In this document: positions 20,070 through 21,578 of the stretch, piece after piece
How positions within the stretch are numbered: position 1 is the stretch's first letter
How the letters are laid out: every line of letters starts with the position of its first letter
Assembly: GCF_030068615.1 (NCBI RefSeq)
Contig: NZ_JASJOC010000003.1
Coordinates: 1-64,000 of the forward strand
Length of the DNA: 64,000 bases
Source of the DNA: Halostagnicola sp. A-GB9-2
Lineage (GTDB): Archaea; Halobacteriota; Halobacteria; Halobacteriales; Natrialbaceae
Direction: 5' to 3'
Translations under genes and position numbers: made by a program
Notes under the pieces: generated by a model
Seen by the model: the letters and a program-made list of their open reading frames with translations, nothing else
Told to the model about the DNA's origin: nothing
Database searches by the model: none

Positions 20070-20808
20070 CGGTGCTCCCCTTGAGCGAACCCACTCCCAC
20101 ACGTAATCGTGCCACGGTCCACACTCGAGGAATCGCCGGTCCCATTTCTGGCCGACGTTCGGCACCGTTCTGTGATCGTTCGCCGGTCTCCCCAGTCGCT
20201 GTGTTCGCTTCGATAGCTCCCCCTAACCGTCATACGAGAGACACTCCTTTTCGATACTATTACTATTCAATAGTTAATTCGGCGGCTGTGGCTCTATCCG
20301 ATCGGTAAAACCCTTTCAGGCTCTGGAGGGCCGGACTCGAGCGACCTTCGACAATTCTCACAGCCCACGGCTCGATGGCCGGGCGCACGGCTCGAGTACG
20401 ACGAGAGCCGTGCAACCCTGCGGAAGAGCAAGCTCTTCCGAGCAGTGAGGCCGCTGGTCCCTCGAGCAGTCGGCGTGCTCACAAATCAAAGGTTTGTGGC
20501 ATCACGAAACGGCGACGCCGTTTCGAACGACTTCGTACCGACGACCTCGCGAACGCGATGCGTTCGCTCAACGGGGGAGGGCAGGCCCATACTTGGCACT
20601 CACCGCGAGCGTCGTGAGCCGGAACGTCTTCCGGTGCTTTTCATCAACGCTAAGCGGAATCGAAGATTCCGCGAGGTCGTCGGGCGGCGCTGGCGTCCGG
20701 CTGCAAGCGATACCGAAGGAATCGCCCGGTCCGAGAGAGCGCTTTGTGCTCCCTCGAGATTTTGCCGCGGGCGCGGCGCAGCCGCGCCCGCAGAGCAAAC
20801 CTTTGGTT
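20070..20808. other. Large intergenic region with hairpin array
   Basis: The first 230 bp hold the promoter of the deacetylase, with an A+T-rich patch near 20255-20278. From 20385 onward the DNA is a series of perfect short palindromes. None of the frames across it resembles a protein. Confidence 0.6.
20385..20791. repeat. Array of at least seven perfect hairpins
   Basis: Perfect inverted repeats with very short loops follow one another: 20385-20413 (9-bp arms), 20421-20440 (9 bp, loop AA), 20505-20525 (10 bp, loop A), 20549-20567 (8 bp, loop GAT), 20619-20634 (6 bp), 20654-20672 (8 bp, loop GAA) and 20767-20791 (11 bp, loop GCA). Weaker ones lie at 20480-20498 and 20599-20618. The arms differ in sequence from one another, so it is not a simple repeat. 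It may be a multi-hairpin RNA, a cluster of palindromic elements, or a structured 3' end of engB, which stops at 20809. Confidence 0.8.
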
Positions 20809-21426
20809 CTAGAAAAACTTGAACAGGTCGTCTCGCTCCTGCTCGTGGAGGTGCGTTCGGACGGCCTCGAGCATCGGATCGAGCTGTTCGCGCTTGGCGC
20901 TGATCGGCGCGATCGTGTCCTGCCACTGTTTCCACGGTGGGTAGAGACCGAGCCGGTCGGCGAGTTCGTTAAGACGCTCGTCGCGGTCGTCGACCTTGTC
21001 CATCTTGTTGACGGCGACGACGGTCGGCACCCCCAGATCCTGCAGGAAGTGATACATTTCGACGTCGTAGGGGATCGAATCCGGCCCAGTGTGGCGGTCG
21101 ATAATGTCGACGACGCTCTTCCCGTCGACGACCAGTATCGCGACGAGGATGTTGTCGGCGTACTCCTCGAGATAGTGCACGATATCGGTCTTGATCTGCT
21201 CGCGGTGGTCTTCTTCGACGCCGCTCATGAATCCGAATCCGGGGAGATCCGTCAGGACGAAACTCTCGGCCGTCCAGTCGTAGTGATTCGGCGAGCGGGT
21301 GACACCGGGTTTGCCGCCGGTATCGAAGGAGTGGCCGGTCAACTCCCGCATGAGCGTGGACTTCCCGACGTTAGAGCGCCCGACGAGTGCGACTTCGCCG
21401 TCGCAGTTCGGACGGTTTTCGAACAT
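20809..21426 (-). CDS. engB: GTP-binding protein EngB
   Basis: A 205-residue TRAFAC-class GTPase. G1 GRSNVGKS is at 16-23, then G3 DLPGFGF, G4 NKMD and G5 SAK, all intact. EngB/YihA helps large ribosomal subunit assembly in bacteria; the archaeal homologue is assumed to do the same. The start [16 protein letters not shown] fits the family, and a longer frame upstream runs into the 79-bp palindrome. The stop lies immediately beside the hairpin array. Confidence 0.9.
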
Positions 21427-21499: not shown

Positions 21500-21578
21500 A
21501 TACTGCCGGCTGTAAGTCGTTCAAGATTTTCGTCGCCCGGTGGTGCGAAAATCTTCACATAGTTACAGCCGGCAGTAT
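21500..21578. repeat. 79-bp palindromic element, copy 1
   Basis: Terminal arms of 16 bp, ATACTGCCGGCTGTAA and its exact complement, flank an inner perfect 10-bp pair (AAGATTTTCG at 21523-21532 and 21546-21555). The whole would fold into one long hairpin. A diverged copy is at 28738-28815. The element sits between engB and the first DUF389 gene. The structure resembles a MITE or REP-like palindrome, but no transposase is nearby. Confidence 0.85.

Follow-up and report, generated by a model that had tools for sequence, protein, structure and literature searches.

A hairpin cluster behind engB in Halostagnicola as an expanded copy of a dispersed gene-end repeat family of the haloarchaea

The prevailing view assigns transcription termination in archaea chiefly to simple T stretches and to the nuclease aCPSF1/FttA. 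Experiments in H. volcanii have demonstrated termination at T stretches and, with lower efficiency, at hairpins; the median 3' UTR is 97 nt, and the terminators are short motifs without mutual homology (PMC7237163). Other described systems consist of palindromes, such as the REP and BIME sequences and their RAYT transposases (PMC3733652, PMC2817692), which are dispersed and extragenic, form mosaic composites and carry modules both ways, and the PATEs and small mobile repeats of Haloquadratum, which are short, free of transposase and equipped with palindromes, the small repeats being found within the palindromes of other elements (PMC3119063). Several hairpins just behind stop codons also characterize two bacterial sets, namely the hairpin-cluster terminators (PMC8355165) and the inverted repeats at E. 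coli gene ends that are capable of forming cruciforms (PMC6060812).

The cluster of hairpins behind engB in a contig of Halostagnicola sp. A-GB9-2 (NZ_JASJOC010000003.1, positions 1 to 64,000, referred to here as the window) is, by comparison with its relatives, one expanded copy of a dispersed haloarchaeal repeat family that has traits in common with each of these systems. It resembles the terminators of H. volcanii in having a T tract just downstream of the transcription unit (T3 in the window copy) and in having hairpins, which can terminate transcription in that species, although its copies are homologous and covarying, with multiple hairpins and fixed linkers, and start 0-5 nt after the gene. 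As in REP and BIME, there are many dispersed extragenic palindromes, mosaic composites and modules in both directions, but the units are larger (a core of ~110 bp with other linkers, rather than 20-40 bp with a GTAG or CGTC tag), the arms vary by copy, the placement is in the sense orientation at gene 3' ends, and no linked RAYT-type Y1 transposase was found in the element's own genome. The likeness to the Haloquadratum repeats extends to all the traits named above, including insertion within palindromes; PATEs derive from the ends of IS605, whereas comparison with the Y1 loci of the own genome revealed no IS605 link, and the distinction is a tentative one. The two bacterial sets were collected by property, and do not form a homologous family with conserved linkers. 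Dispersed, palindromic, terminator-like elements at gene ends are a kind already known, while the class-wide conservation, the exchangeable hairpins and the covariation on two strands appear to be new within the searched literature, in which a search limited to open-access papers found no description of the element.

A repeat search of 20366-20805 recovered eight perfect inverted repeats (+ strand coordinates), at 20385-20413 (arms of 9 bp, loop of 11), 20421-20440 (9 bp, loop AA), 20480-20498 (6 bp, loop of 7), 20505-20525 (10 bp, loop A), 20549-20567 (8 bp, loop GAT), 20619-20634 (6 bp, loop of 4), 20654-20672 (8 bp, loop GAA), and 20767-20791 (11 bp, loop GCA). The first-pass annotation had described at least seven such repeats at 20385-20791, with arms of 6-11 bp that differ from one another and loops mostly of one to four bases; the number and the diversity of the arms hold true, the short loops apply to six of the eight (not to those at 20385-20413 and 20480-20498), and the cluster is real, but belongs to a slightly longer element, from approximately 20378 to 20805. 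When only arms of 7 bp or more and loops no longer than 5 are counted, five hairpins remain, and no other 440-bp tile of the window contains as many. The possibility, raised at the outset, that shuffled sequence might give as many palindromes is contradicted by 1,000 dinucleotide shuffles of 20366-20805 (mean 0.32, maximum 3), and folding of both strands against shuffles, also suggested there, gave RNA folding energy z scores of -8.9 (+ strand) and -6.75 (- strand).

The general layout can be read from 30 members of the family, in whose engB 3' flanks the plain form begins a few nt after the engB stop and runs, in its 5' part, as ACGAANTTTTGC-KCTGC-(hairpin A)-TCGGCAAAANTTCGAT-S-AAAAGCACTCCTCCYTCC-(hairpin B)-TCRGTCGTCGGCC-(hairpin C), continuing after hairpin C with ...-CCTTCCCCG-GGTTGCACG...CCCGGCC. 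In the conserved core of ~110 bp, the pairing P1 encloses hairpin A, and is followed by the linker AAAAGCACTCCTCC, hairpin B, the linker GTCGTCGG and hairpin C; both linkers are nearly invariant. The 5' arm of P1 carries a TTTT tract and the 3' arm an AAAA tract; this T4 is nearly invariant and kept on both strands, while the adjoining pairs vary freely among GC, CG, AU and UA. The linkers CTCCTCCYTC and TCRGTCGTCGG of the 48-copy alignment, both invariant, would pair in a three-base rhythm of a C-G pair followed by two C/T mismatches, repeated. Extra hairpins after GGCAAAA and after CCTTCCCCG are found in several relatives and in the window copy, which has both insertions, with one module in opposite orientations in the two blocks.

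In the window, engB (20809-21426, - strand; an ORF with a 50S ribosome-binding GTPase domain, 21426 being taken as the likely start) ends in the stop codon TAG at 20809-20811, and the whole composite element, as aligned with the engB 3' flanks of relatives, occupies 20378-20805 on the same strand, which is that of all the parts given below. The covariance model matches 20699-20805 (36.6 bits, E 2e-7), and its alignment places the 5' arm of P1, CAAAGGTTTGC, at 20795-20805, beginning 3 nt past the stop, with a T3 tract instead of the T4 of most copies. Hairpin A, with 11-bp arms and a loop of 3, follows at 20767-20791 (repeat list and model alignment), and the 3' arm of P1, GGCAAAATC, at 20758-20766, as judged from relatives that lack the insert. 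Directly after this arm stands the first inserted module block (20646-20757, including the hairpin 20654-20672), which is missing from base elements such as L086, L098 and L104, and is found in L091 and L093. The sequence then gives the start of the conserved linker, AAAAGCAC, at 20634-20641, although the CTCCTCC that is invariant in other copies has been lost here, and the repeat list and the order in relatives put a hairpin at the place of hairpin B (20619-20634), before a remnant of hairpin C, CTCACGACGCTCGCGGTGAG, at 20599-20618, identified from the sequence and relatives. The second inserted block (20414-20571) holds the hairpins 20549-20567, 20505-20525, 20480-20498 and 20421-20440, and repeats the CCGACGACCTCGCGG motif of the first block in reverse orientation. 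A terminal hairpin (arms 20385-20393 and 20405-20413) and the 3' end GGCC complete the copy at 20378-20413, the same terminal end being present in L085, L096, L099, and L101-L104. An initial BLAST picture of two head-to-head elements in the window was abandoned, given that the relatives' engB flanks reveal a single composite with an inverted module. Two early suggestions, a structured 3' region of engB and a cluster of palindromic insertions, both prove apt: a gene-end element lies on the engB strand 3 nt past the stop, with extra palindromic modules at two fixed places and in both orientations.

When the hairpin region was used as a BLAST query, 36 of 61 related genomes (the majority from the same family) gave matches, and the own genome gave 40, although many of these were partial and weak. 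Orthologues of engB are present in 119 of 121 family genomes. The element is missing behind engB in some genomes, and an identical engB flank occurs in Halostagnicola sp. A56 (L145) as well as in G004 (L082), which belongs to the same genus as the window. Among the matches listed, a linker scan of named genomes found Natrialbaceae only; with two mismatches, the linker was also found in other haloarchaeal families, against a nearly empty reversed control, and the same layout was read directly there. A covariance model built from 48 copies finds the element in 70 of 97 genomes of the haloarchaeal class, and, with 39 candidates scored per genome, the copy counts are lower bounds, the highest in one genome being at least 39, in G166; the own genome has 15 copies at a looser threshold. 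The same model gave no hit in ~100 phylum genomes that lie outside this order. In the species-rich haloarchaeal genus g33 the element is absent or rare, while other genera have tens of copies. An Rfam 15 covariance-model search matched the element to no family, in the window or at other loci, and a known RNA family was rejected as a candidate, the only sub-threshold match being riboswitch-like and outside the element; a phage origin was rejected in the absence of matches in the phage collection.

In G166, which belongs to another family, the start of 24 of 30 copies falls between -1 and 5 nt after the stop codon of an ORF of at least 60 codons, compared with 3.4% of random positions and 0-2 of 30 shifted positions, and 49 of the 66 copies in named Natrialbaceae lie just after a stop (48 within 5 nt, one at 11), with the same genes carrying copies in several genera. 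The orientation is that of the gene's own strand. Copies also lie directly behind the signal-recognition-particle (SRP) RNA gene and a tRNA-Ser gene, so the landmark is the gene end rather than the stop codon, and a tie to the translation stop is ruled out. Only some genes have a copy; convergent neighbors can each carry one, and no enrichment between convergent genes was seen with a crude gene finder. In L249 (L249:370-555), a duplicated 3' end of tRNA-Lys lies ~100 nt downstream of the intact gene, with the look of an integration site, and the gene-end element stands directly behind it. From the placement, together with the pairing described below, we infer that the element would terminate transcription at gene ends in both directions and that its hairpins are interchangeable, which is the most likely reading and one to which we would give an even chance.

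A comparison of G130 with G137, of one genus, illustrates how the copies change: engB is 92-98% alike and the downstream flank mostly 88-97%, but hairpins A and B are entirely different and P1 differs with compensation, between nearly identical linkers. Whole hairpins, or the entire 5' half, thus appear to have been exchanged, recombination with another copy being the simplest route. It could be argued that the element is a selfish palindrome of the REP/BIME or MITE type, which targets gene 3' ends with no function for the host and needs its hairpins for mobilization as single-stranded or cruciform DNA. Tens of dispersed copies, presence or absence at the engB and SRP loci, modules in both orientations and a lack of sense-strand G-U bias would all suit this reading, as would a version of ~160 bp with two copies in Natrinema versiforme that are 99.3% identical over 152 bp between unrelated flanks, and with similar copies in other genera and on plasmids. 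This version has roughly inverted ends, but no target duplication was resolved; in an empty-site comparison, the flanks of the mobile copy were found in the genus, with an intergenic spacer too variable to fix the boundaries. No element copy lies next to either of the two Y1_Tnp genes of the own genome, and these loci were rejected as carriers of the repeat. Long retention, seen in the conserved linkers and in the same genes of several genera, and the sense placement within 5 nt of gene ends also argue against a purely selfish element, which we consider rather unlikely. In L136, on the reverse strand ~280 nt downstream of a linker match, there is a short tandem array of GCGGTTCGGAACGAGC units.

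The pairing itself is strongly supported. Changes on both sides affect 18 of the 23 pairs in a 48-sequence alignment (212 double-change cells) and all 23 in 115 model hits (585 double-change cells, against 188 in shuffles), although the second alignment is fitted to the model and therefore biased in its favor. Covariation (Y with R) is also seen at the base of hairpin B. The relatives could have shown no conservation of arms or compensatory changes, an outcome that the first-pass annotation had envisaged, but the arms vary with compensation. As for the composition of the pairs, there are 34 G-U versus 42 A-C among 585 hairpins and 64 versus 58 overall in the model alignment. One-sided G-U changes are rare, unlike in typical RNA families, where they are not rare. 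As G-U is no commoner than A-C, the palindromes look as though they are kept on both DNA strands, and not just in one RNA. The loops, mostly of three bases, include the mutual complements TTC and GAA at about equal frequencies, which, together with the rarity of G-U, suggests either that pairing is preserved on both strands or that whole hairpins are replaced.

These counts bear directly on a second alternative, in which a structured 3' UTR, or an RNA derived from the 3' end, would serve to protect or process the transcript, through the stability of the 3' end or the recognition of the linkers by an RNase or a protein. It would account for the sense orientation behind genes, the invariant unpaired linkers, the covariation and the good fold, and within P1 alone G-U exceeds A-C in the model alignment (25 versus 11), which is a hint of selection on the sense RNA. 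In the hairpins, by contrast, G-U is as rare as A-C and the TTC and GAA loops are balanced, which makes this alternative unlikely and leaves the multi-stem RNA proposed in the first reading of the locus not established. A double-stranded DNA element, that is, a cruciform or an array of protein-binding palindromes acting as a topological or chromatin boundary, would fit the two-strand symmetry, the mostly three-base loops and the gene-end placement, with one copy behind gyrB, but is very improbable, given that freely varying arms make ordinary sequence-specific binding unlikely and that the orientation is fixed relative to the gene.

Under the two-way terminator reading, sense transcripts would meet a first U tract within ~10 nt of the gene end, and antisense or convergent transcripts would meet hairpins C and B and then the U4 tracts GTGCTTTT and GTTTTGCC. 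The hairpins would be exchangeable parts, swapped between copies by recombination, and two permissive points accept further hairpin modules, the engB copy being an example. The proposal would also explain why the palindromes remain perfect and G-U is not favored, since both strands must fold. It draws its support from the position, the T4 on both strands and the fit of the hairpin cluster, from the homologous copies behind engB across the family, from the strong covariation with G-U no commoner than A-C, from the demonstrated termination at T stretches and hairpins in H. volcanii, and from convergent neighbors that can each carry a copy. Against it stand the T tract of only 3-6 residues, the G-U excess in P1, the partial coverage of genes, the lack of convergent enrichment, and the median 3' UTR of H. 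volcanii, which exceeds the distance to the first T tract of the element. Caution is also advisable because a copy in Natrinema thermotolerans (L254:2501-2702) separates gyrB from gyrA, so that complete termination there would come at a cost if gyrA had no promoter of its own, and because termination does not explain the long invariant linkers.

A homologous, strongly covarying element at gene ends, shared between haloarchaeal families and present in tens of copies per genome, would enlarge the archaeal repertoire by a module that is open to deletion and testing, and would illustrate how terminators can pass from one gene to another, while its hundreds of copies offer a natural data set in which selection on RNA can be set against selection on DNA palindromes. 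A broader and tentative proposal is that of a class-wide archaeal gene-end module, with palindromes maintained on both strands, which would colonize the 3' ends of transcription units (mRNA, SRP RNA and tRNA) by a dedicated mechanism, exchange whole hairpins and serve the host as a two-way transcription boundary.

Separate from the hairpin element, a 33-bp inverted repeat (85% complementary, with a 13-nt loop) that starts with ATACTGCCGGCTGTAA lies at 21500-21578 of the window, between the likely start of engB and the next gene, and similar ATACTGCCGG-GTAA pieces are found at other loci, such as behind the SRP RNA gene in L330.
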